Below, piece after piece: positions 5,817 through 43,048 of a stretch of 64,000 nucleotides of DNA. The stretch's first letter is position 1; every line of letters starts with the position of its first letter. The notes beneath the pieces were generated by a model that was not told the origin of the DNA, ran no database searches, and saw only the letters and a program-made list of their open reading frames with translations. A program made the position numbers and the translations under genes. Origin of the DNA: Candidatus Hydrogenedentota bacterium (GTDB lineage Bacteria; Hydrogenedentota; Hydrogenedentia; Hydrogenedentales; CAILVY01); the NCBI GenBank assembly GCA_029565395.1, contig JAKQOG010000119.1, positions 1 through 64,000 of the forward strand, given 5' to 3'.

Positions 5817-5900
5817 AAAGTTAATGGCTAGTTGGCAAGAGAAATGCGCGGTATTCATCATCATGGAATTCATGCCAATATCATCTCAGGAGTGAATGCA

Positions 5901-8900
5901 ATGTCAACACAAAGAATGAGTGTTATGGTTGCAACCATACTTGTCGCCATGGGAAGCGCCATTGGATTCGCAGGTGCGGAAAACCCAGTCACGGTTCAGA
6001 AAGAATCCGTGGAAACCCTCTCGCATCAAGGAAAGCTCAGGGCCGTGGTGCCGAACGAGGAAACAGTCACCCTCACCATTGCCGTCACAGGTACAGGCTC
6101 CACCGCGCCTGAACCTGGAGCATATGAATATTCCGTAGGACAAATGATTAGTATCAACGCAGTGCCAACCAGCGGCAGCGGATGGGCTTTCGATCATTGG
6201 GAAGGCGATATAGGAAGTGCTGATCCCGGCTCTATCAACATAACCATAACGATGGACCAGAACAAAACGGTTACGGCCGTCTTCTTGGAAGCGGACTGGA
6301 CGTTAACCCTCCAGAAAACGGGGAATGGAGAAACTTATCCTGTTTCCGGCGAATATGCCTTTTTCGATGGCGACACGGTCAATGTCAATGCCAATATCAT
6401 CGCGGATGGCGATGCCTTCGACCAATGGACCGGCGACCTAATGAACGGCACGGATGCGCAAAACGCCTATCAAGAGGTGACTATGGACCAGAATCGCAGC
6501 CTCACCGCGCAATTCGTTCCTGGCGACTGGACCCTCACCATCAGCACGGCAGGTTCGGGCATTGGAAACATCAGTCCGGGAATCGGAGTTTTTTCCTATC
6601 TGGCCGGCCGCACGGCCTTCGTCAATGCCAACACCTCTTCCGAAAACTATTTTGCCGGATGGACCGGCGATGTGACGACGTATAACCCATCTCTCAATAT
6701 CACCATGGAAGGCAATAAGGCCATCACGGCGAATTATGCGGAATCAGGCTATGCACTCACGGTGGCGTCGGAAGGGCAAGGCTGGGTTGATCCAACGGGC
6801 GCCTTCTACCTGGCCAGTAATACGGAACCCATTTTACGGGCTTATCCAGCATTCGGCTATATGTTTTCCGAATGGACCGGGGACCTCCCCACGGGCGCCG
6901 ATGCCGGTAATCCAGAATTGCCCGTGTTAATGGATCAAGATCGGAGCCTGACCGCCCATTTCGTCCAAATAACCTATACGCTCACCCTTATCCTTGAAGG
7001 AGAAGGAACTACCACCCCCCCAAGCGCCCCGGATCCTGGTTTTCAGTATGAATACACGCCAGGGGATCTCGTTGAGATTGAAGCCTCTCTGGGAACGGAT
7101 GGCTGGGCTTTTAGCCACTGGACCGGTGACATTGGCGGCAATAGCTCTGCCAGCCGGAGCCTGAGCATCGCCATGGACCAAAACCGAACCATCACTGTAC
7201 ATTATGTCCCCGCAGACTGGACTCTCACAATTGGTTTCACGGGAGATGGAGATACATGGCCTGCGCCTGGCAGCTACGGATTCATCAATGGTTCCTATCA
7301 ACGTATCCTGCCGATCCTTCATGAGGGGGGAGACGCCTTTGATCATTGGGATGGACTGCCCGCCGGACACGATCCGCTCCAGGCTGATCAGACGGTTGTG
7401 ATTTCCGGCGATTTGAACCTGACCGCAGTGTTTGTCACAGGCGATGTATTCCTGACCACGAACGTGGCCGGCGATGGAACCACAGAATATCTCTCCCATC
7501 CCGCAGGGGTGTATGCCTTCAAACAGGGACAATATGCTCCACTGGAAGTCCGTCTGGCCTCTGATTCCTTCTGGGGCGGATTTTCCGGAGATCTGAACAC
7601 CTATGATTTATCGTATTCTTTGCTTATGGACGCCGACAAGAGTGTCACCTATAATCTAGCCACCTCTGGATACCACCTTGTCGTTAATCAATCAGGGGGC
7701 GGGTCGATAAATCCATCCGGAACAATAGGGTATGCGGCCGGCGCCACACCCGCAATTCACGCCATTAATGTGGGAAACAAAGTATTCACCCAGTGGACCG
7801 GCGACCTCCCGGACGGGGTAGACCCCTCTGATCCCGATCCAGTCATCCTCATGGACCAGGACCGGACGATTACCGCCACCTTCGAGACCGGCAACTGGTA
7901 TTTGTACCTTCAGGCCATGGGAAATGGAACCACTGATCCCTCTCCGGCACAATACTGGTTTATGGATGGACAGGCCTTCGAAGTAACTGCCATCCCAGGT
8001 ACGGATGAATTCAACCATTGGATGGGGGATGTGCCGGAAGGCCAGGATCCTGCCTCCCTTACCCTTTCCGGAATTATGGATCGCAACCGGGAATTAATCG
8101 CCATATTCACCCCCAGCACGGTCACTGTGCCGGATCTGTCAGGGAAAACGGCGGATCAGGCTGCATCCATTTTAGCAGTGTTGGGCTTATCCTTGGGCGA
8201 AGTATCACAGGAATATAGCGACACAATTCCGGTAGACTATGTCATTTCTCAAACTCCCGAAGCAGGTGTCATCGTGGCATACGGCTCCACCGTGGATATC
8301 GTCGTTTCGCTGGGACACTGCTATACCCAAGTGCCGAATTTGGGCGGACTCACTCAGGAAGAAGCAGAGTCTGCATTGGAATCTGCGAGTCTGATCTTGG
8401 GCACAGTCACCCAGGAATACAATGACTTTGTGCCGGAAGGGCAAATCATCGAGCAAAACCCGGTGTACGGTTTGGTGATATTGTGTGATTCCCCGGTGAA
8501 TATCGTTATTTCGCTGGGACACTGCTATGCCCAGGTGCCTGCTCTGATTGGTCTCACGCAGGCTGAAGCGCAAACCGCACTAGAGGCGGCGAGTCTGGTG
8601 TTGGGCACAGTCACCCAGGAATACAGCGATCTCGCGCCTGAAGGACAAATCATCGGGCAAACCCCGGCGCAAGATTCAACCGTTTCGTGCGGCGATCCGG
8701 TGAATATCGTTATTTCGCTGGGACACTGCTACGCCCAAGTGCCTGCCCTGATTGGTCTCACACAGGCTGAAGCACAGGCTGCCTTGGAAGCGGCGGCTCT
8801 GGTCTTGGGTACAATAACCCAGGAATACAGCGATCTCGCGCCGGAAGGGCAAATCATCCAGCAAGACCCGGCGCAAGATTCCGTCCTTTCCTGCGGCGAC

Positions 8901-9440
8901 CCGGTGAATATTGTTATATCATTGGGGCTCTGCTATGCCCAAGTGCCAGACTTGGCTGGCCTCACGCAAACAGAAGCGCAAACAACCCTGGAAGCAGTGA
9001 GCCTGACCCTCGGAATGGCAACCCAGGATTACAACGATCTCGTTCCGGAAGGGCAAATCATCCAGCAAAATCCAGCGGCGGGTTCGGAGGTACCGTGTGA
9101 AGCCGCTGTGGATATCGTCGTGTCCCTTGGCCCCTCGTATGATGGATTGCTCATGGTGGATCAGGATGGCGACAGCCTCGTCAGCCTTTCTGAACTATTT
9201 CGGATAATCCAATTCTACAATTCTGATAGTTTTCACTGCGACGCAAGTACCGAAGACGGGTACGACATCGGCCCCGGCGATACCACCTGTACGCCATACG
9301 ACAGCGATTACAGCCCCCAGGACTGGCGCATCACCGTCCACGAACTCCTGCGTGTTATTCAGTTTTATAATTCCGGCGGATATCACTACTGCCCCGATGA
9401 CGGCACGGAAGACGGTTTCTGCCCTGGACAAGCTCGTTAA
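5901..9440 (+). CDS. Large secreted protein: nine InlB-type repeats, five PASTA domains, dockerin-like C-terminus
   Basis: The ORF opens at 5832, but ATG 5901 has AGGAG 8 bases upstream and starts directly with a signal peptide (MSTQRMSVMVATILVAMG), giving 1179 residues. Bases about 6068-8117 encode nine repeats of about 75 residues with the W-x-GD core and a MDQNRTITAxF-like end, typical of InlB B-repeat/Flg_new_2 modules. Bases 8118-9137 encode five PASTA domains (VPDLSGKTADQA, then VPxLxGLTQxEAQ). The last 100 residues are a two-part EF-hand-like module ([30 protein letters not shown]) shared with three other genes here. No catalytic domain is visible. The likely role is extracellular adhesion or wall/glycan contact. 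A strong promoter precedes it and a hairpin follows, so it is probably monocistronic. Confidence 0.88.
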   Translation: MSTQRMSVMVATILVAMGSAIGFAGAENPVTVQKESVETLSHQGKLRAVVPNEETVTLTIAVTGTGSTAPEPGAYEYSVGQMISINAVPTSGSGWAFDHWEGDIGSADPGSINITITMDQNKTVTAVFLEADWTLTLQKTGNGETYPVSGEYAFFDGDTVNVNANIIADGDAFDQWTGDLMNGTDAQNAYQEVTMDQNRSLTAQFVPGDWTLTISTAGSGIGNISPGIGVFSYLAGRTAFVNANTSSENYFAGWTGDVTTYNPSLNITMEGNKAITANYAESGYALTVASEGQGWVDPTGAFYLASNTEPILRAYPAFGYMFSEWTGDLPTGADAGNPELPVLMDQDRSLTAHFVQITYTLTLILEGEGTTTPPSAPDPGFQYEYTPGDLVEIEASLGTDGWAFSHWTGDIGGNSSASRSLSIAMDQNRTITVHYVPADWTLTIGFTGDGDTWPAPGSYGFINGSYQRILPILHEGGDAFDHWDGLPAGHDPLQADQTVVISGDLNLTAVFVTGDVFLTTNVAGDGTTEYLSHPAGVYAFKQGQYAPLEVRLASDSFWGGFSGDLNTYDLSYSLLMDADKSVTYNLATSGYHLVVNQSGGGSINPSGTIGYAAGATPAIHAINVGNKVFTQWTGDLPDGVDPSDPDPVILMDQDRTITATFETGNWYLYLQAMGNGTTDPSPAQYWFMDGQAFEVTAIPGTDEFNHWMGDVPEGQDPASLTLSGIMDRNRELIAIFTPSTVTVPDLSGKTADQAASILAVLGLSLGEVSQEYSDTIPVDYVISQTPEAGVIVAYGSTVDIVVSLGHCYTQVPNLGGLTQEEAESALESASLILGTVTQEYNDFVPEGQIIEQNPVYGLVILCDSPVNIVISLGHCYAQVPALIGLTQAEAQTALEAASLVLGTVTQEYSDLAPEGQIIGQTPAQDSTVSCGDPVNIVISLGHCYAQVPALIGLTQAEAQAALEAAALVLGTITQEYSDLAPEGQIIQQDPAQDSVLSCGDPVNIVISLGLCYAQVPDLAGLTQTEAQTTLEAVSLTLGMATQDYNDLVPEGQIIQQNPAAGSEVPCEAAVDIVVSLGPSYDGLLMVDQDGDSLVSLSELFRIIQFYNSDSFHCDASTEDGYDIGPGDTTCTPYDSDYSPQDWRITVHELLRVIQFYNSGGYHYCPDDGTEDGFCPGQAR

Positions 9441-19912: not shown

Positions 19913-22168
19913 ATGAAACAACGCTTTCCAGTTCTCATCCTTGGCGCACTGTTTCTTGGGTGCCTGCAATCACACGCATGGGCTCCCGCAACCCACGCTT
20001 ACTTGGCGGAACGCTTCACCGGCCTTCATAACAACGATATCATATATGGCTCAATGTTGCCGGACTTTTCTTCCCTTATTCCGGATAATCCAACCGCATG
20101 CGCCAAGCTGAATCAACTCACGCATTTCGAATTCGACCGTCTTGCGCCTTCCGACTTCGCAACGGGATTCTCCACCCATAACGGAACCTGGGGCGCGGAC
20201 TACTATGCCCATCTCTGCTACACCCCCGATCCCGACCCCATCTATTCCGTCCTGAAAATCCAACAGATCAGCGACGAGTTTGGCTTGAGCACGTCGAATG
20301 CTGAAGGCATCTTCGAAATGACCATCGACTATCTGGTCCGTCTCTCCGTCGGCCCCGAACTCGGTACGCGCATCAAGAACAGTGTGGAAGCCGCAAATGA
20401 AGCAAATACACAGGCGCTGGTGGATGCCTTTGCACAACCACTCGCTGATCGTGCAGGCATGACGTTGGCACAGGCCGAAGAAGCCATTCGTAATGCCATG
20501 ATCATGTTTAAAACCATGACCGAGGCCTATGGGACGCAATGGGAACAGGACGTGGCCTATCTTCAATCCCTTATTCCGCCCATGCTTGCAACTTTTCTCG
20601 GTGTGGACGAAGAAACCGCCGAAACCTATTTCCTGCGCGCCACTGAAATCTGTTCGGATTTCCAAACCGAAATGGACCGCATTGTCGGCATTGTCAGCGT
20701 GCATTACCCTCAACCCGAAGGCCAGGAAGAGGGCCTGCCCTCAGAAGGTTCGCCGGAAGAGGGAGAGGAAGAAGGTGAAGTGGAAACAGACCCATGGGAC
20801 ATCAATTTCTGCGCACAATTTCAGGGAATTGTGGACAATCCCCTCCTGGACATGGCAGGCCCGGAATTCCAGGTCTTCATTGAAATGCTCCACCCCAACA
20901 ATGCCGACATCAACGGCTCGGTTTCCGTCGATACCACCTATGGCAATGACATTCAAATCTTGGGCAATGGCATTCTCGACGCCATGAATGAATTCGGCCT
21001 CATCGCGCGGATTCTCAAAGATCCAAACTTCAATAACGGCGTACTCACCAGCGAGTCCCTGCGCACCGCCTGGGAAGCCAACCTCTTACAACTCAAAACC
21101 GATTTCGGACCGCTTGCCACCAATGTCCTGAATGTTCTTGCCCCTCAATTGTTTATGGTCTTCAACGCCTACCTCATGCTGGGCGATGGGGACTACACCA
21201 TCGTCTCAAAACCAACCGAAGAAAATCCGGATCTCCCTTTCATCGCTTCCGGAAACGGCTCCTTCGGGCTGATCGCCGGGATGGTCGCTCTACTGGCGGA
21301 TAAGGTAACAGACTATGTCCCAGGCGGAATCGCCAATCCCGAACTTGATAAAACTCAATATGTCGACTTTCCCGAACTGCTCCCCGATGGCGACGCCGAC
21401 GGCGATGGTTTCTCAAATGCTATAGAATACGCCTACTTCACTCCCGTAATCTGCAACACCGAAGAAATAAAATCCGATCCCTCCATTAGTTACGTCGTAG
21501 CCGCTCTCAATCCCTATATCATCCCCTTGTCAGGAGAAGGCCTTGACGAAGGCGAAGCTGAAGGTCAAGCCGAAGGCGTGAATGAAGGTTCGGAGGAAGG
21601 TCCGGCAGAAGGTACAACCGAAGGCATGACTGAAGGTGAGGGTCAAAACGAAGGAGAAGAAGAAGGCTTGCCGGAAGAAGGCCAACCAGAAGGTGTCATT
21701 GAAGGTGGCGAAGAAGGCCTGCCCTCTGAAGGCTTCCAGGAGGAAGGAGAAAATGAAGGCTTTGAGGAAGGTCTGCTGGAAGGACTGAGCGAAGGCGTCA
21801 CGGAAGGCAGTAGCGAGGGACAAGAAGAAGGTGTTTTAGAAGGTGAAGGTGAAGGCGAAGGCGAAGGCGAAGGAGAAACCGCCAGCCACACCGCCGACCA
21901 AAACGCCGATTACCTCATCAGCCTCTCAGAACTCCTGCGCGTTATCCAATTCTTCAACTCTGGCGGCTTCCATTGCCAATCCGGCACCGAAGACGGCTAT
22001 GCCCCCGGTCCTGGCGATCAATCCTGTACGCTGTACGATAGCGATTACAATCCAACCGATTGGGAGATTAGCCTCTCCGAGTTGCTACGGGTAATCCAAT
22101 TCTTCAATTCCGGCGGCTATCACCCCTGTGAAGGATCCGAAGACGGCTTCTGCCCCGGACCCGCATAA
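19913..22168 (+). CDS. Secreted zinc-dependent phospholipase C-like protein with Glu/Gly linkers and dockerin-like end
   Basis: The signal peptide ends at SHA, which would leave Trp as the first mature residue (WAPATH). In bacterial zinc phospholipases C the mature N-terminal Trp and nearby His bind zinc. Further family-like segments are GSMLPDF, LTHFEFD and [14 protein letters not shown], which offer Asp and His ligands. After about residue 260 there is a first Glu/Gly stretch ([11 protein letters not shown]). Residues about 540-660 are a long low-complexity EG repeat. The last 90 residues are the dockerin-like module ([17 protein letters not shown] twice). [14 protein letters not shown] segment is a calcium-type loop. 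It probably acts on phospholipids or is a degenerate relative; activity is not proven. The start has GGAG upstream. Confidence 0.75.
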
Positions 22169-31315: not shown

Positions 31316-34300
31316 CTAATCGGCCCGGCCCCGTTTCCGGCGCAACGCCAAAGCCAGCGCCGCCATCATCATCCCCGCCACCAGCATATCTCCAAAACGG
31401 CCCCCCGATGCCGCTGCTCCCGGACCGCATCCCATAAAGGTTATGGTTTTCACTTCATGATCCTCAGGGGGGGCTTGATATGTAAATGCCTCTGCCAGAC
31501 GGCCCGTACCCAGGTTTGTGGTTACTGTGACGTCCACCGTGCCCGCCATATGCAATGGTGTGACAACCTCCAGGGTGTTCTTGTCAATCGCCGTGACGCG
31601 GCCCGATGCAACCCCCCCAAACTTCACCTTGTAAGCCCCGCTGAGCGAGGCGCCCACCACACGGATGGTTTCGCCGCCCAACTCCTGCCCGAAATTCGGC
31701 GTCACCGACAGCACTTCGGGGAGATTGATGATGGTAACAATGGGCGATACGGCCTCATCCCCGCCAATATAACTCGTGGTAATGGGTAATACTCGGAACC
31801 ACCACCGGTCATTGCCGCGCGTGGCTGAAGCGGGGACGGTCAGGCTCCCCGTATATGCGGTGACAATCTGCCCGTTCTTATACCAGTAAATAATGGTCGG
31901 GCCTTCTCCGAAAAGATAGGGATCGTCTTCCGCCTGCGGATGATAATAGTCATATGACGCCATCAAGGGCCGGTCATCATCCACTACCCGGTTCAATGCG
32001 GCATTCTCACCTGGGGCGCCCGTCGACAAAAGCAGGTTGTGCGCTTCCGGCAGCAAATACACATCGCCTACAATCAACAAAATATCTTGATAGGCGTCGT
32101 CGTCTCCCAGCATCGTGCGGACGCGCAACGTATACACCCCCGCATCCGCAGGCGTTGTTTGCCAATAAAACAGGCCCGTCCCATCGCCCGCATCCGCAAA
32201 TGGAGGATTACCCGTGCCATCCCACGAGGCAAAAAGTATCGGGATTTCCACCGCGCCCGCCGGCTTGGTCGTGGTTACCATAAAGGAGATCAACGCGCCC
32301 GCGTCGACGTCCTGAACCGCCACGGGATCTATGCTCAACTGCGCCGGCGCTTCAGGCAACTCGGAAAGGTTATTGTAGAAATTGACATTGCGGAGATCCT
32401 CAAACAAGTCACCAGGATTCTGGGGAACGCCCTGCCCGTCCGAAAGTCCCACCACCGCACGCTTCGCATTCAATTCCCTGTACGTGATCCGGATATGACC
32501 GCTGAAGAACAATTCCACCTGCACGCTGTTGGGCAACGGAGAACTGTAATCGCCGCTGTAAATATACTCCGGAATTTCCTCATACGTGGCCACCATGCGG
32601 TCGGGAAGCAGCCGCGCCCAGGCAGTGCCCCCAATGATCGGCGCCAGGTCCGCGAACAAAAACGATATCCGCGGCGCCTCAAAATGCGCCGCCAGACTTG
32701 GGAAATTGCTGTCACTATACGGATCTACCTCCTGGAAGGCTATATAACCGTTCGCCGCAAGAACGATGCCGGAGTAGCGCTTTCCAAAGAAGGGGAACGC
32801 TGCATTACCCAATCCATACGCAAACATGCCGTCATCGGTGAACGGCAGCATGACGGGACCACCCAGATCATCCTCCATCGGAACCGGGAAATCCACCACG
32901 CCTTTCATAATAGTCGCTTCATAATCGGAATAATCATTGCCCCCGGAAACCGCACCGCCGAGCGGCGGGGATCCCACCGGCGTAAAGGTGATCTGGGTGT
33001 ACGCCAGATCCAGCTTCGTGGGAGTATACGCGCTATTAAAGGATTCGGTGAGCACTTTGGATGGCTGCGCTCCCACCGTGGCACGGGCATAGGCCATTTG
33101 CGGGAAACCCGAATTCATATTCGCGAACAGCGTGTAATAATAGGTTGTGCCGGGATTCACCGCCTCATCCAGGTACTTTTCTTCACGCCCTTCATATAAC
33201 TGCGTGCCCTCCGAGAGGGAGGAGGCATACGCCCCGACCGAACGCACCAGCACCACTTGCGAATACGTATCGGAAGCAGGCGGCGTCCAATTCAACGCAA
33301 TGACAGCATCGCCGTCCATGGTCGTGGCGGGAATCGCACGGAAACCGCGAAGCCCTTCTTCCAATACATACGGCGGCTCGATTTCCACCGCGCGCGTCGC
33401 CCGCACTATGTTAAGCCGCTCATCAAAACTAAATCCAAGATTCGCACTGGCCGCCCCTAATACGAAGTAATACATATAATACGTCGAATACTCCGGTAAC
33501 AGATATTGACAGGCATATAATAAGTCGGCCGTGCGATCAATGCCCATCCCCGTGACAGATTGTCCGTTAAAGGTGTCGCCATCCGTCAACAAATAGGTTA
33601 GCTTATTGCCAACACCACTATTAATATGAACCCCGCCACGGTCATACCAATACCATTCAGGATCAATAAAATATGGGCTGTTATACCGATCCGGATCGCC
33701 AAATAGAGTGGGATCCTTCAAATAACGATTACCTGGGAAAGGTTGACTTGGATCAAATAAAGAAGCGGGCAGATCTTCTCCATGAACCCATCGCATTGCA
33801 GCAGAATCATTGCCCCTGCCATTGGTCAAGTCCACAAATTCGCCCCATGAATCAGAGAAAGACTCATTGATCGCCCCGGATTCGCCCAAATAAATCAGAC
33901 CGGAAGTATATTCTGTAACTCCATGGGTAAGCTCATGTGCTGTTATGTCATCGGTTCCCCAGTCAGTGCCAAATTCCATATAATCTCCCATCCAATAGGC
34001 ATTGTCATAAGGGAAACGGACATAGGCAACAAGCTCACTCCCCTCATCATCGTAGCTATCCCGTCCGTGATGAACAAAATAAAAATCGTACGTGTCGCCC
34101 AAATAATCATAAACATTATCAACATCCGTGATACCTGCTGCCGGATCTCCTTCCTCGCGTGCCGGATCAGTCGGTACTTGATAACTGTTGTTCATGTCAT
34201 AAATCTTACGTGCTTTCGCATTCTCAAGCAGTGAATAATGAAACGTCAATTCACCCGAATGCGCGTCAATAAACACATTCTCCCGGACCTGTTCGGCGCC

Positions 34301-34981
34301 TTCCGATACTAGAATCATCCGCCATGCCAAATGCGGCTGCCCTTCCATTCCCAGCAGCGTCGGACTGTAAATGACCAGTTCCGGGCCTTCTTGCACCGTC
34401 AATGCATCTGCCGTCACCGTCCCCAGGGCCGCAGCCAATTTATTCTTTGCCGCGGTTATGGCATCCGCTTCGGCAAGGTCGGGGGTTAATGAAACACCGT
34501 TATAATCCAGCGGGCGCGTATCCCGCAGAATCTCGCTCGCCACATTCTTAATGCCGCCATCATCATTCACCTGCACCACCATCGATCCCGCAAACACCAG
34601 CACGCCGCCATAACTCTGCTTCAACCGAACATACGATTCGCCCAAATGCGTCTGAACATTCTTTAAGGACAGCGCCACATTGCCGCTTATCACGCCGAAC
34701 GCTCCCTTGTGCGCCTCGACAAATGCGCGCGCCGATGCTTCCGCGCCCGCCCCCTTTGCCACGCCCGGATTGGCGAAATAACCTCCCGGAGGCGCGCCAA
34801 GAAAACGAAGGTAGCCTTCCTCGCTCGTGAACACTGCCGGCGGCTCCGTTGCGCCGGGCGCCTGCAAGGCCCTGAACACTTCCGCAAGATCGTTCGAATT
34901 TGCGGCAAGCGGCTGGCCAAAGGCCGCTGCGGCTACACAAAGGCTGAGAGCTGTCAACGCTGCAACCTTATTCGCGCGCAT
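31316..34981 (-). CDS. M4 (thermolysin-family) metalloprotease with C-terminal sorting-like tail
   Basis: The 1221-residue precursor starts with a signal peptide and an inhibitory FTP/PepSY-type propeptide (residues about 30-270). The M4 catalytic domain follows: HELTH (about residue 347) with the third zinc ligand in GAINESFSDSWGE and the catalytic histidine region GVHINSGVGNKLTYLL. A fibronectin-like region and other beta domains come next. A TIG/IPT-type domain ends the body (VTPNFGQELGGETIRV). The tail MGCGPG...DMLVAGMMMAALALALRRKR joins a GC motif, one membrane helix and a basic end, like MYXO-CTERM sorting signals. The mature enzyme should act at the cell surface or be released. It is monocistronic with a hairpin after it. 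Confidence 0.9.
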   Translation of the reverse strand: MRANKVAALTALSLCVAAAAFGQPLAANSNDLAEVFRALQAPGATEPPAVFTSEEGYLRFLGAPPGGYFANPGVAKGAGAEASARAFVEAHKGAFGVISGNVALSLKNVQTHLGESYVRLKQSYGGVLVFAGSMVVQVNDDGGIKNVASEILRDTRPLDYNGVSLTPDLAEADAITAAKNKLAAALGTVTADALTVQEGPELVIYSPTLLGMEGQPHLAWRMILVSEGAEQVRENVFIDAHSGELTFHYSLLENAKARKIYDMNNSYQVPTDPAREEGDPAAGITDVDNVYDYLGDTYDFYFVHHGRDSYDDEGSELVAYVRFPYDNAYWMGDYMEFGTDWGTDDITAHELTHGVTEYTSGLIYLGESGAINESFSDSWGEFVDLTNGRGNDSAAMRWVHGEDLPASLFDPSQPFPGNRYLKDPTLFGDPDRYNSPYFIDPEWYWYDRGGVHINSGVGNKLTYLLTDGDTFNGQSVTGMGIDRTADLLYACQYLLPEYSTYYMYYFVLGAASANLGFSFDERLNIVRATRAVEIEPPYVLEEGLRGFRAIPATTMDGDAVIALNWTPPASDTYSQVVLVRSVGAYASSLSEGTQLYEGREEKYLDEAVNPGTTYYYTLFANMNSGFPQMAYARATVGAQPSKVLTESFNSAYTPTKLDLAYTQITFTPVGSPPLGGAVSGGNDYSDYEATIMKGVVDFPVPMEDDLGGPVMLPFTDDGMFAYGLGNAAFPFFGKRYSGIVLAANGYIAFQEVDPYSDSNFPSLAAHFEAPRISFLFADLAPIIGGTAWARLLPDRMVATYEEIPEYIYSGDYSSPLPNSVQVELFFSGHIRITYRELNAKRAVVGLSDGQGVPQNPGDLFEDLRNVNFYNNLSELPEAPAQLSIDPVAVQDVDAGALISFMVTTTKPAGAVEIPILFASWDGTGNPPFADAGDGTGLFYWQTTPADAGVYTLRVRTMLGDDDAYQDILLIVGDVYLLPEAHNLLLSTGAPGENAALNRVVDDDRPLMASYDYYHPQAEDDPYLFGEGPTIIYWYKNGQIVTAYTGSLTVPASATRGNDRWWFRVLPITTSYIGGDEAVSPIVTIINLPEVLSVTPNFGQELGGETIRVVGASLSGAYKVKFGGVASGRVTAIDKNTLEVVTPLHMAGTVDVTVTTNLGTGRLAEAFTYQAPPEDHEVKTITFMGCGPGAAASGGRFGDMLVAGMMMAALALALRRKRGRAD

Positions 34982-37223: not shown

Positions 37224-37297
37224 GAATATTAGAGTGAAACTGAGGTACACTTGGTGCATATGAGGTGTAGGGTATGAAAAAGGGAAGGATGCGTGCC

Positions 37298-39984
37298 ATG
37301 AGCCGTCAAACACAACCCCCAATCAAATCTATTCATTTCATCCTGTCCGCCGGATTTCTCCTACTGCTGAGCGGTCTCCCGGCGGCGAACGGCGCGGATA
37401 GCGCCCTCACAATGAAAACCGATCCCATCGGCATCGATTCCATCGAGGAATTGCAATTAATAGGCAATGACCCCGCCTACCCCCTTGATGGAAGCTACAT
37501 CCTCACCCAGGATATCGATGCCTCCGCCACCGCCGCCTGGAATGACGGTGAGGGCTTCGACCCCATCGGGAACTATGACGAAGCCAACCTCGCCGTCTCA
37601 TTCACTGGGCAATTGGACGGACAGCGCTATGTTATCCGTAACCTGAACATCAACCGGCCCAACGAGGATAATGTGGGGCTATTTTCCGCTATTCTCGAAC
37701 CGAGCGCACTCACAAACCTAGGGCTGGAACAATGTAAGATTGTGGGACGAGATAATGTCGGAGGTCTATTAGGTTTTGGTAATTGTTCTATTATTACTGC
37801 AAGTTATGTGGCAGGCGCTATTACAGGGTCAGAAAATGTTGGGGGATTATTAGGTTATGCGGGAGATTGTCTTCATATTTCTCAATGTTATGCACAACCT
37901 ATAATTACAGGAATACGCAATGTGGGTGGTCTTATGGGGCAAACTGCTATGTTGAGTATTCACGAGTGTTACGTTGTAGGGGTAGTCAGTGGAATAACAA
38001 ATATTGGCGGTCTATTTGGTTGTTCTGATCTTATCCAAATGGAGGACTGCTATGTGGTAACCGTGTTAACTGGACGGACAAAGGGGAATTGTTGTGGTGA
38101 GGGAGATCAAAACATAATGATGTTCCTGCAATCAGTATTTTACGACATGGATGTATCCGGTCTTCCTGATGGTTCCATATATGAAATAAATCGAACTACT
38201 GCGGCCATGATGCAAGCTGCTACCTATATTAATAGCGGGTGGGATTTTACGACTGAAGATGGGGATCCAGCTATTTGGACGATATTGGAGGGACAGACTT
38301 ATCCACACTTTATTTGGTCTGCCCCATCTGATGTGCGATATTTCTTGTCAGCAACTGCAGAACATGGTTCCTTCAACATTGAGCCCAACCAGAGCGATTA
38401 TGCACCCTTCTCTTTAATTTGGTTGACAGCAGAAGCAGATACAGGCTATCGCCTAGCTGGATGGACGGGATCAGACTTTGGGGATATTGCGCTACAGGAC
38501 AAGAACCCATTACCAGTAATTATGGGTAGCAACCGAGAAATTCGTGCCATATTTATCCCTGATAGACCAATTGCGATTTATTCTATTGAAGATTTGCAAA
38601 AAATCGGTCGGGACAGCGAGTGGCCACTAAATTGGGACTATGTAGTAGAAGAAGATCTGGATGCTTCCATCACCACGGAATGGAATGGCGGTGCAGGCTT
38701 TCAACCTATAGGAAGAGTAGGGTTTCCGTTTTCAGGTATCATTGAGGGTAACGGTCATGTAATTAGAAATTTGGTGGTTAACATGCCGCAAGAAAGTTAT
38801 ATCGCTCTCTTGGGGTATATTGATGAAGCGGGAGAAGTGCGTAATCTAGCATTGAAGGCGGGTTAATTTCTGGTCAAAGACATGTCGGGGCGCTCACGGC
38901 AAGTAATTATGGATCGATATCAAACTGCCATGTTGCAATATCGATTCTAACAGAAGGATCTGCAGGTGGTTTAATCGCAGAAAATGCAGGAAGCGTATCC
39001 AATTGCTTCACAGATTGCACTCTATTAGGGGATGAAAATGAGTATTGTGATAATGTTGGAGGGCTTATTGGAGAAAATTCAGGTGATGTATCCAATTGCT
39101 TTTCCGCAAGCGCGGTGTTCGGATGGGATCGTGTAGGTGGTTTAATGGGCAGCAATAGCGGTACCGTATCAGAATGTTTCACATCAGGGGATGTCGTTGG
39201 TATAGGTACTGTTGGTGGCCTGATTGGGTCGAACTACACAGGATCAGTATTAAAATGTTTCGCGTCGGGTACAGCAACCGGACACTTTATGGTTGGAGGC
39301 CTACTGGGCTTTTGTCGATACAACATAGTATCTGATTGTTATGCCACCGTAGATGTATCTGGGAACGAAATCGTAGGCGGGTTGATAGGTGAGATAAGGG
39401 ATCTAACCATTTCCAAGTGTTATTCGGTGGGCAGGGTCTCCGGCAACAGCACATTGGGAGGCTTGGTGGGGTTTAGTGAAGATTCTTCGGCGCCATACTG
39501 TTACTGGGATGCTGAAGCTTCTGGAATCACCACATCCCAAGGCGGAGTCGGTAAAACGACTAACGAGATGCAAACCGCTTCCACCTTTACTTCCGGAGGG
39601 TGGGATTTTAATACGATCTGGGGGATTGATGAGGGAACCTCGTATCCCTACCTGCTCTCGCTCAGCGCCCAAGAAGGGGAAGGCGAAGGGAACGCAATAG
39701 AATTCCTCACGGTGGATATCAATGCTAATCACATAATCAGCCTTTCGGAATTATTACGCGCAATTCAGCTCTATAATTCAGCCGGTTATCACTGTCAGGC
39801 CGATACGGAAGACGGATATGCCCCTTACTCAGGGGATACTTCCTGTACTCCTTCCAATAGTGACTACAACCCTGTGGACTGGGTTATCAGTCTGTCCGAA
39901 CTCCTTCGGCTGGTCCAACTTTACAACTCTGGCGCTTATCACGCCTGTCCCGGAAGCGAGGACGGCTTCTGTCCGGGGTTATGA
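37298..39984 (+). pseudogene. Frameshifted GLUG-repeat surface protein (copy 1)
   Basis: The start at 37298 (MSRQTQPPIKSIHF) is chosen because the equivalent of the upstream ATG 37274 is out of frame in copy 2. A signal peptide (FILSAGFLLLLSGLPAANG) is followed by GLUG-type beta-helix repeats (VGGLLGFGNCS, VGGLMGQTAM) and one InlB-like repeat. A second GLUG block begins IYSIEDLQKIGRDSEWPL. The frame ends at a TAA at 38864-38866. The other frame continues the same protein immediately (LISGQRHVGALTASNYG) through many repeats to the dockerin-like end at 39984. Alignment to copy 2 fits a one-base deletion near 38855-38863. The gene is broken unless this is a sequence error or the two halves are made separately. 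Confidence 0.85.
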
Positions 39985-40270: not shown

Positions 40271-43048
40271 ATGAGACATCAAACAAAACGCCCAATCAGT
40301 TCTATTCATTTCATCCTGTCCGCCGGATTCCTCCTGCTGCTGAGCGGGCTCCCGGCGGCGAACGGCGCCGATGGCGCACTCACAATGAAAACCGATCCCA
40401 TCGGCATCGATTCCATCGAGGAATTGCAATTAATAGGCAATGACCCCGCCTACCCCCTTGACGGAAGCTATATCCTCACCCAGGATATCGACGCCTCCGC
40501 CACCGCCGCTTGGAATGACGGCGCGGGCTTCGACCCCATCGGGGAGTATGATGGGACAACATCGTCTCCAATATTCAGTGGCCAACTTGACGGGCAGCGC
40601 CATGTGATCCGTAATTTAACCATCAATCGGCCTAATGAAGATTATAGTGCATTGATTGGAGGTATAGATGAAAGTGCTATCATACAAAATTTCGGGCTTG
40701 AAGAATGCCAGATCACAGGCAATGGTTTTGTCGGCGGGATTTTCGGCATGGCGGACATTGCAACAATTTCCGAGTGTTTTGTAAAAGGGTCCATTCATGG
40801 CAGACATACGGTTGGCGGCATAATTGGATATGGCCAGTACTGTACAATCACACAATCCTTTTTCTCTGGTACGATAACAGGCGCGAGTATGATTGGTGGT
40901 ATTGCTGGATATGCAGGTCCGTTTTGTGCAATTTCCGATTGTTGTGTCATAGGTGCTGTTTTCCAAGGCGCCGCATTAATTGGGAATATGGAGCTAGGAT
41001 GCTCTTTATCAAAATGCTATGCCGCCGCCCTTGGTGCAGATATTTCTCTTTCCGGCGGTTTAATAAACACATATGTCGGTACTCAAGAAATTGTAGACTG
41101 TTTTTGGGATATGGATGTTTATAATCCCGTCAGTACCCAAATTTTGGGAATTGGGTTGAATACTTCCGCAATGATGCAATCCTCCACCTTTATTACAGCG
41201 GGATGGGATTTCAGCAATGAGGATGGCAACCCTCCAATCTGGACCATGATAGACGGCGAGAGCTATCCTCGTTTGGTGTGGTCAACTCTTGCAGATGCCC
41301 GCTACACGTTAACAATCGATACTGAACATGGAACGGTGGAATCCAATCCCGTGCAAAGTGATTATGCACCCTTTTCCTTGGTATGGATGAGCGCGGAACC
41401 AGATCCGGGATACATTTTTGCGGGATGGACAGGTGACGGCCTGGGAAACATAGCGTTACAGAATAAAAATCCTTACCCCATAGTCATGGGGAGCAATCAA
41501 GAAATTACCGCGGTGTTTCTGCTGGATAGCCCGATTGTGATTCATTCGATTGAAGAATTACAGAAAATTGGAAGGGATAACGAATGGCCCTTGCATTGGG
41601 AGTATGTGCTGGAGGAAGATTTGGATGCCGCCATCACGGAGGGGTGGAATGGAGGAAAAGGATTTATTCCGCTGGGATGGCCATATATGTCCTTCCAAGG
41701 CAGATTTGAGGGCAGCGGGCATGTAATCAGGAACCTTTTCATAAACTCCCCGCAAGGAGATATTGCTGGACTCTTTGGGACTATCGGTGAAAACGGAGAA
41801 GTCCATGACCTTGGACTAATTGGGGGGGCGGTATCGGGATCCTCTTATGTGGGCGGGTTAGCAGGAAACAATTACGGCACGGTAACGAACTGCTATACGG
41901 CAACAACAGTTTCAGGAATAGAATATGTGGGCGGGTTATTGGGATATAGCAAAGAAGGCATTATCACTGGGTGTTATGCGGCAGGAGAAGTGAACTCTGA
42001 GGGAAATCATATAGGTGGTTTGATTGGTGCAAGCAGGTGGGGCGCTATATCGGAGTGTTTTGTAATGGGCACGGTCTCAGGAAACGAATATGTTGGAGGT
42101 CTGATTGGAAGAAATGAATCTGCCGCGTCGGATTGTTTTATGGCTGGTACGGTTTTCGGAAACACGTATGTAGGTGGTTTAATCGGTGAGAGTATAAGTG
42201 GCGCCACGGTTACAAAATCATATGCAACGGGCGATGTCTCAGGGCAATCATGTATTGGGGGGTTACTTGGGCAAGCTCATTCCGAGCAGACGATATCAGA
42301 ATGTTACTCAACATGCAGTGTTTCGGGCGATCACTCTGTGGGAGGTTTGGTGGGAGTTGCTTGGCTGAGTGCCATCTCAAACTGTTATGCATCGGGTAAT
42401 GTTTCCGGAAATTATGATGTTGGCGGCCTGGTAGGATATCTGCGAAGCGGTGATCCTCCCGGCACTGTCCAAAAGAGTTTTTCTATCGGTGCGGTTTCGG
42501 GAAACACCTCTACTGGCGGCTTGGTCGGATTGAATGAATTTGGCGCGGTTGAATCCTGTTTCTGGGATACGGAAACATCAAACCAGGATACATCGAGTGG
42601 CGGAACCGGATTGCCAACAGCACAGATGCAAACCAAGGCAATTTTCACTAGTGCGGGTTGGGATTTTGACACAATTTGGGGGATCGACGAAGGGATTTCA
42701 TACTCGTATCTCTTGGCATTCAACGAACAGAGCAACGAAGGCGAGACTGAAGGGAGTGGTGATGAATTTCTGTCTGCTGACCAGAATAATGACCACGTGA
42801 TCAGTCTCTCGGAATTGTTACGGACGATTCAATTTTATAATGCGGGTGGATATTGTTGCCAAGCCGGTACGGAAGATGGATACGCTCCAGGAACTGGCGA
42901 TACATCCTGCGGTACGCATAACAGCGATTACAATCCTGCAAATTGGGTGATTAGTTTGTCCGAACTCCTTCGGCTGGTCCAACTTTACAACTCTGGCGCT
43001 TATCACGCCTGCCCCGGAAGCGAGGATGGCTTCTGTCCGGGGTTATGA
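40271..43048 (+). CDS. Intact GLUG-repeat secreted surface protein (copy 2)
   Basis: The 925-residue protein has a signal peptide (FILSAGFLLLLSGLPAANG), then two related halves. Each half starts with a SIEELQxIG...W...LEEDLDA-like segment and continues into GLUG repeats of about 28 residues (YVGGLLGYS...GCYAAGEV). The first half has few repeats and the second about ten. Between the halves sits one InlB-type repeat (GYIFAGWTGDGLGNIAL). A short EG-containing linker and the dockerin-like module ([35 protein letters not shown]) end the protein. GLUG repeats form beta-helices in bacterial adhesins and IgA-protease-like proteins. An adhesion or substrate-binding role is likely. Codon use is AT-richer in the core than at both ends. 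Confidence 0.85.
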   Translation: MRHQTKRPISSIHFILSAGFLLLLSGLPAANGADGALTMKTDPIGIDSIEELQLIGNDPAYPLDGSYILTQDIDASATAAWNDGAGFDPIGEYDGTTSSPIFSGQLDGQRHVIRNLTINRPNEDYSALIGGIDESAIIQNFGLEECQITGNGFVGGIFGMADIATISECFVKGSIHGRHTVGGIIGYGQYCTITQSFFSGTITGASMIGGIAGYAGPFCAISDCCVIGAVFQGAALIGNMELGCSLSKCYAAALGADISLSGGLINTYVGTQEIVDCFWDMDVYNPVSTQILGIGLNTSAMMQSSTFITAGWDFSNEDGNPPIWTMIDGESYPRLVWSTLADARYTLTIDTEHGTVESNPVQSDYAPFSLVWMSAEPDPGYIFAGWTGDGLGNIALQNKNPYPIVMGSNQEITAVFLLDSPIVIHSIEELQKIGRDNEWPLHWEYVLEEDLDAAITEGWNGGKGFIPLGWPYMSFQGRFEGSGHVIRNLFINSPQGDIAGLFGTIGENGEVHDLGLIGGAVSGSSYVGGLAGNNYGTVTNCYTATTVSGIEYVGGLLGYSKEGIITGCYAAGEVNSEGNHIGGLIGASRWGAISECFVMGTVSGNEYVGGLIGRNESAASDCFMAGTVFGNTYVGGLIGESISGATVTKSYATGDVSGQSCIGGLLGQAHSEQTISECYSTCSVSGDHSVGGLVGVAWLSAISNCYASGNVSGNYDVGGLVGYLRSGDPPGTVQKSFSIGAVSGNTSTGGLVGLNEFGAVESCFWDTETSNQDTSSGGTGLPTAQMQTKAIFTSAGWDFDTIWGIDEGISYSYLLAFNEQSNEGETEGSGDEFLSADQNNDHVISLSELLRTIQFYNAGGYCCQAGTEDGYAPGTGDTSCGTHNSDYNPANWVISLSELLRLVQLYNSGAYHACPGSEDGFCPGL

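Follow-up and report, generated by a model that had tools for sequence, protein, structure and literature searches.

A module of about 90 residues, carried by secreted proteins of Candidatus Hydrogenedentota, is at a probability of roughly one half a divergent dockerin-like docking module that clips these proteins onto the cell surface via cohesins in a non-cellulosomal system, the binding to cohesins being what we infer. Because at least 150 secreted proteins of one genome carry the module, and because it is fused to cohesins across the phylum, it most likely works like a dockerin.

Module copies in the window

The source is a Candidatus Hydrogenedentota draft genome of 7.5 Mb, and the window is the whole stretch of 64,000 nucleotides of it that was analysed. 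Translation of the genes gave four copies of the module in the window, all on the + strand. The copies and their carriers are as follows.

5832..9440, + strand: carrier 1, a secreted protein with InlB B-repeats (Flg_new_2), five PASTA domains and the C-terminal module
9159..9434, + strand: module copy 1, 1 residue short of the stop, with both halves and 4 Cys
19913..22168, + strand: carrier 2, a secreted protein of 751 aa with a long Glu/Gly linker ahead of the module
21896..22165, + strand: module copy 2, flush with the stop
37274..38866, + strand: carrier 3, 5' part, a GLUG/InlB-repeat protein whose frame closes before the module
39115..39984, + strand: carrier 3, 3' part, in another frame, with GLUG repeats, a short EGEGEG linker and the module
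39715..39978, + strand: module copy 3, 1 residue short of the stop
40271..43048, + strand: carrier 4, a secreted GLUG-repeat/InlB-repeat protein of 925 aa, the intact tandem paralogue of carrier 3
42779..43042, + strand: module copy 4, 1 residue short of the stop

The first-pass annotation had four genes ending in this module. All four copies are present, but the gene that begins at 37274 or 37298 does not reach its own. The frame of this gene closes at 38866 and a different one encodes the module (ORF 39115-39984; open frame about 379 aa), which indicates that the gene is split near 38,860, by a frameshift or an assembly error; carrier 3 (37274-39984) could thus be a pseudogene or an assembly error. 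The other three carriers are intact secreted proteins. Carrier 1 has 1202 aa counted from the TTG at 5832, and a later start codon is likely. InlB-type B-repeats, PASTA domains or GLUG repeats were found on the window carriers, with no Pfam domain in carrier 2. Glu/Gly linkers, also claimed by the first-pass annotation, do precede three of the four copies, while the copy at 9159 directly follows the PASTA repeats. The other window modules have 58-66% identity to the first copy (9159-9434), and in the own-genome search the window copies matched the 21896 copy with E-values of 1e-39 or better. The similarity is therefore far beyond chance, and chance was rejected as an explanation of the copies.

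Apart from the module carriers, the window encodes an M4 (thermolysin-type) peptidase with an IPT/TIG domain (31316-34981, - strand), whose tail consists of CGPG, a hydrophobic helix and RRKRGR. Since this tail differs from the module, the genome seems to use another anchoring signal beside it, one of membrane type.

Sequence anatomy

The repeat unit of the module is about 45 residues, and each half has an EF-hand-like loop, a helix, a beta-hairpin and a Cys pair. The EF-hand character proposed at first holds for the first half, the loop of which is a canonical 12-residue EF-hand loop with the pattern D-x-[ND]-x-[DN]-x-x-I-x-L-x-E. In the 179 copies with that spacing, D1 and E12 are both at 100%, N/D at position 3 is at 89%, D/N at position 5 at 96% and I/V at position 8 at 97%. 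It does not hold in the same form for the second half, the loop of which (DxDYxPxDWxIxLSE) is about 3 residues longer and non-canonical. The helix [11 protein letters not shown] is strongly conserved. The Cys pair of each half was borne out over 201 unique copies, with 139 having all four cysteines (CCCC), 51 the first pair (CC..) and 11 some other pattern. The second pair is retained or lost as a unit with few exceptions, as expected for a disulfide. In copy 2, with 21884 as the first base of the numbering, the predicted disulfides would be C31-C48 and C82-C90. The module thus probably binds calcium and probably has a disulfide in each half.

Predicted fold and relation to dockerins

We modelled module copy 2 (input 21884-22165) with AlphaFold2 on 53 sequences. 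The model is confident, with a pLDDT of 96.3 and a pTM of 0.85, and consists of two halves of loop, helix and hairpin. A Foldseek search of the model gave no significant PDB match; the five best neighbours were all cellulosomal dockerins (4dh2, 2ccl, 2vn5), as were 8 of the first 16, and the dockerin neighbours had target-normalised TM values of 0.45-0.57 with E-values of 2-5, i.e. below significance. Profile-profile comparison with dockerins of the phylum aligned one loop and helix only, at probabilities of 81% (hhalign against the dockerins of the same genome, 21 columns) and 50%. With non-significant fold neighbours and a profile alignment of one repeat, distant kinship with dockerins is no more than plausible.

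Neither in the window carriers nor in the 53 copies did any Pfam or NCBIfam model recognise the module. The first-pass annotation had named a profile match to ordinary type I dockerin as evidence against a module of its own kind; this did not occur. Dockerin_1 (PF00404) was absent from the four window carriers and matched 6 of the 53 copies weakly, with a best E-value of 0.027 and none above the curated cut-off. EF-hand models gave weak matches in 30 of the 53 copies (best 3.6e-4). Matches to Pfam S4_2 and to NCBIfam YaaA or FolE were weak helix matches and were set aside. The NCBIfam model NF041540 (GC-type dockerin domain-anchored protein), whose name likewise denotes a dockerin-type anchoring domain, had one weak match among the 53 modules (E 0.037) and none in 68 Hydrogenedentota genomes, where the control set was equally silent. 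A search against PDB sequences found nothing, a second such search gave two chance-level matches only, and a literature search for the motif strings of the module gave no match.

Like type I dockerins, the module has a two-fold internal repeat with an EF-hand-type loop and helix, stands at the extreme C-terminus of many secreted proteins behind linkers, and is part of adaptor proteins that join it to a cohesin; dockerins are also the nearest PDB neighbours of its predicted fold, at non-significant E-values. A type I dockerin, however, has two F-hand repeats of about 22 residues, each with a 12-residue calcium loop, and the module departs from this with its repeats of about 45 residues, an added beta-hairpin and Cys pair per half and a second loop longer by about 3 residues. 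Judged by its sequence, the module is outside the dockerin family as defined by PF00404. The initial description of a module with dockerin-like logic and a sequence of its own is supported: no library model covers it, its best fold neighbours are dockerins at non-significant scores, and it takes the dockerin's place in cohesin adaptors.

Distribution across genomes

The source genome has at least 151 module copies; 150 of the 217 candidates were scored by the search, so that the copy number is a lower bound. The first-pass annotation had suggested a profile search of related genomes and regarded restriction to this locus as evidence against its idea. With a 45-sequence profile we found the module in 41 of the 68 Hydrogenedentota genomes. 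At least 75 copies each were found in G000, G001, G039 and G040, 37-42 in G002 and G038, about 19-24 in G027-G030 and G041, and mostly 1-6 in the other genomes, while the module is almost absent from the largest family (f11). As the module is genome-wide and phylum-wide, a locus-specific repeat was rejected.

The public relatives found are nearly all Hydrogenedentota. Outside the phylum, Desulfonema magnum, which is cultured and has a complete genome, has six module matches, and a Victivallales MAG has nine. In this MAG (L105, L108, L111, L117, L120, L121) the module is often internal and is then followed by a conserved domain, xGTLTAxR...VTLTHTxPAALTSLxxxExLPAGWTF. Matches in a Kiritimatiellae MAG are confined to a single short contig and are possibly contamination. 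Of 138 copies, 121 had their nearest neighbour in the same genome, compared to about 52 (maximum 71) upon label shuffling. The modules are thus homogenised within each genome.

Position in proteins and cargo

Among 135 classifiable copies, 118 end 12 or fewer residues from the stop, five come straight after a signal peptide and 12 have an internal position; most copies stop 0-4 residues ahead of the stop codon. One protein of the source genome, 2552 residues long (L146:7929-15584), has four copies, of which three fall within the final ~520 residues. The use of several chain positions fits an autonomous binding domain, and behind signal peptides or within the chain a processed C-terminal sorting signal would be unable to function, which argues that the module is not a cleaved sorting tag.

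Pfam searches on 36 carriers found InlB repeats, PASTA, LRR, P-domain, M6 peptidase and EF-hand, and further CHRD, Ig, FGE-sulfatase, GLUG and beta-helix. In the window, neither the fucosidase nor the rhamnosidase genes have the module. A cellulosome was rejected, as the sampled carriers are not dominated by glycoside hydrolases and the carbohydrate enzymes of the window do not have the module.

Cohesins and their fusion to the module

The receptor had been left unnamed by the first-pass annotation, which proposed to look for co-occurring cohesin-like receptors or sorting enzymes. Cohesins are present in 58 of the 68 Hydrogenedentota genomes, and the source genome itself has seven cohesin matches together with eight true dockerins. 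Fusions of cohesin and module occur in two phyla and show three architectures, which narrows the receptor to a candidate: cohesin is most likely the binding partner of the module, and surface display most likely the outcome.

The first architecture is a short protein made of a cohesin and a module, which was found in 16 of the 20 module-bearing genomes examined. It has ~255-265 aa, with a signal peptide, the cohesin and a C-terminal module, in G000, G001, G038, G039, G040 and G027-G030, and 264-386 aa in the module-poor genomes G004, G007, G010, G014, G016, G033 and G035; sometimes its module is one of only three to six in the genome. Of the remaining genomes, G002 has only a variant of the cohesin fusion with an N-terminal module, and in G031, G041 and G058 the short protein was undetected. 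The cohesin of the adaptor is confirmed by a Pfam match of 6.5e-11 and a fold match with an E-value of 2.3e-12. The second architecture, in G000, G001 and G002, has a signal peptide, module, cohesin and beta-helix, and the third, in G000, has a cohesin, module, Ig domain and hydrophobic tail. These two look separate in origin. A fusion that related genomes share is a single architecture passed on by descent and does not count as independent events.

In genomes of families f1, f8 and f5 the short protein belongs to a conserved operon, which encodes a small dockerin protein, a dockerin plus Asp-rich calcium-repeat protein, the cohesin plus module protein and after it one or two more cohesins, most of which have a hydrophobic anchor at the C-terminus. 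These gene contexts come mostly from draft MAGs. The operon copies are as follows.

L137:1219-2732, L163:5510-8812, L168:7124-10998, L169:4820-8911, L176:5575-10221: dockerin/cohesin plus module operon

The small dockerin protein of the operon often ends in ...NAPPxx. Several module-poor genomes have a cohesin operon without the module.

The genome of D. magnum, in which we counted 23 cohesin matches, encodes two proteins with an N-terminal cohesin and a C-terminal module. One of them adjoins a protein made of a cohesin and a true dockerin, so that dockerin and module occupy the same place here. At this site (L102:3220-6318) the gene for cohesin plus true dockerin stands beside one for cohesin, InlB repeats and module.

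All 11 module-expanded genomes have cohesins, which are common also in module-free genomes, and the numbers of modules and cohesins correlate weakly (Spearman 0.23, p = 0.06). Two f11 genomes without the module (G048 and G049) have 63 and 47 ordinary dockerin matches in the same extreme C-terminal place. The repeats of these dockerins (L232-L251) are near-identical (DVNGDxxVNAVDVQLVINAALGL), a parallel expansion without the module. Module-rich and dockerin-rich genomes do not overlap (0 of 11), a result that is non-significant (p = 0.34) and confounded by family and descent; the exclusion therefore serves as a supporting observation only.

Discussion

Cohesins and dockerins, which are best known from complexes that degrade cellulose, form one of the tightest natural couplings between proteins. 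In the reading that we prefer, each half of the module would form an EF-hand-type calcium loop and a helix, then a beta-hairpin, with one disulfide. The module, mostly placed behind flexible linkers at the extreme C-terminus of well over a hundred secreted proteins, would bind cohesins, some of them membrane-anchored and some on the small adaptor proteins, and this binding would hold the carriers on the cell surface. The cargo would be mostly repeat- and adhesin-type proteins, peptidases and similar rather than cellulases, which would make the system a non-cellulosomal one. It is quite possible, and we put it forward tentatively, that the module forms an undescribed class of docking modules, larger than a dockerin and built on disulfides, that took over from dockerins in a non-cellulosomal cohesin system extending across the phylum, and that serves some species as one interchangeable plug on well over a hundred secreted proteins.

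The layout of the short cohesin plus module protein is exactly that of a monovalent adaptor scaffoldin, which has one dockerin and one cohesin (PMC11557425). It differs in that the module is in the dockerin position and the carriers of the module are not dominated by glycoside hydrolases; the other cohesins of the operon have C-terminal hydrophobic anchors. Among published ideas the 'planctosome' (PMC6461901) comes closest, a non-cellulosomal complex of cohesins and dockerins that has been proposed for freshwater Planctomycetes. It likewise combines an anchored cohesin, an adaptor with a dockerin plus a cohesin, and extracellular cargo, and is as hypothetical as the system proposed here; its dockerins are recognisable and its cargo consists of peptidases, whereas the module here is a different one, present at least 151 times in a single genome. 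Our literature search found no paper on Hydrogenedentota cohesins.

When a known scaffoldin combines a dockerin with a cohesin on one chain, the two usually do not pair with each other. The operon holds true dockerins, and these are the obvious partners for the cohesins encoded there; the module may therefore provide a second binding specificity. This leads to the strongest alternative, in which the receptor is a protein other than cohesin (e.g. an outer-membrane or S-layer protein) and the cohesin plus module proteins are converters that bring true-dockerin proteins to it. The module and cohesin on one chain beside true dockerins would agree with it, as scaffoldins usually have two separate specificities there, and so would a cohesin number that does not scale with the module number. 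Homogenisation within genomes is expected for co-evolution with one species-specific receptor; however, a cohesin receptor, or plain duplication, would account for it just as well. With no candidate for such a receptor found, and with cohesins in every module-expanded genome, we consider this alternative unlikely.

Less probable still is a reading in which the module has no dedicated protein receptor and serves either as a structural cap stabilised by calcium or as a sticky domain, with matrix polysaccharide or other copies of the module as its binding targets. Attachment to repeat-rich adhesin-like proteins would suit such a role, as would the C-terminal, N-terminal or internal placement with up to four modules per protein, but a passive cap explains neither the strong conservation of the helix nor the recurrent fusion to cohesins across genera and in a second phylum.

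The first-pass annotation had allowed a sorting device. A role of the module as a C-terminal signal for secretion or sorting, read by T9SS, an exosortase or another sortase-like enzyme, is very improbable: although most copies end next to the stop codon and the carriers are a large part of the secretome, copies also stand behind the signal peptide or internally, the module lacks both a hydrophobic helix and a basic tail, and the distribution of exosortases is not that of the module, strong ones being missing in 8 of the 11 module-rich genomes and common in module-free genomes. PEP-CTERM/exosortase signals are C-terminal only, with a motif, a hydrophobic helix, a basic tail and the enzyme present, a pattern that the module does not fit, and the T9SS C-terminal domain is Ig-like beta, unlike the predicted loop, helix and hairpin of a module that is not always C-terminal. 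A search for the T9SS protein SprA in the 68 genomes gave no match, the control set being equally silent.

As Pfam and NCBIfam do not have the module, well over a hundred carriers per such genome are annotated without their shared feature. If docking onto cohesins is true, the module would give a handle on the arrangement of the cell surface in these cells, and a second, sequence-distinct plug in an uncultured phylum would suggest that the principle of surface display is general. It would also be a new orthogonal coupling part, probably calcium-switched and disulfide-stabilised, and D. magnum, which is cultured and has its own cohesin plus module genes, makes the idea testable.
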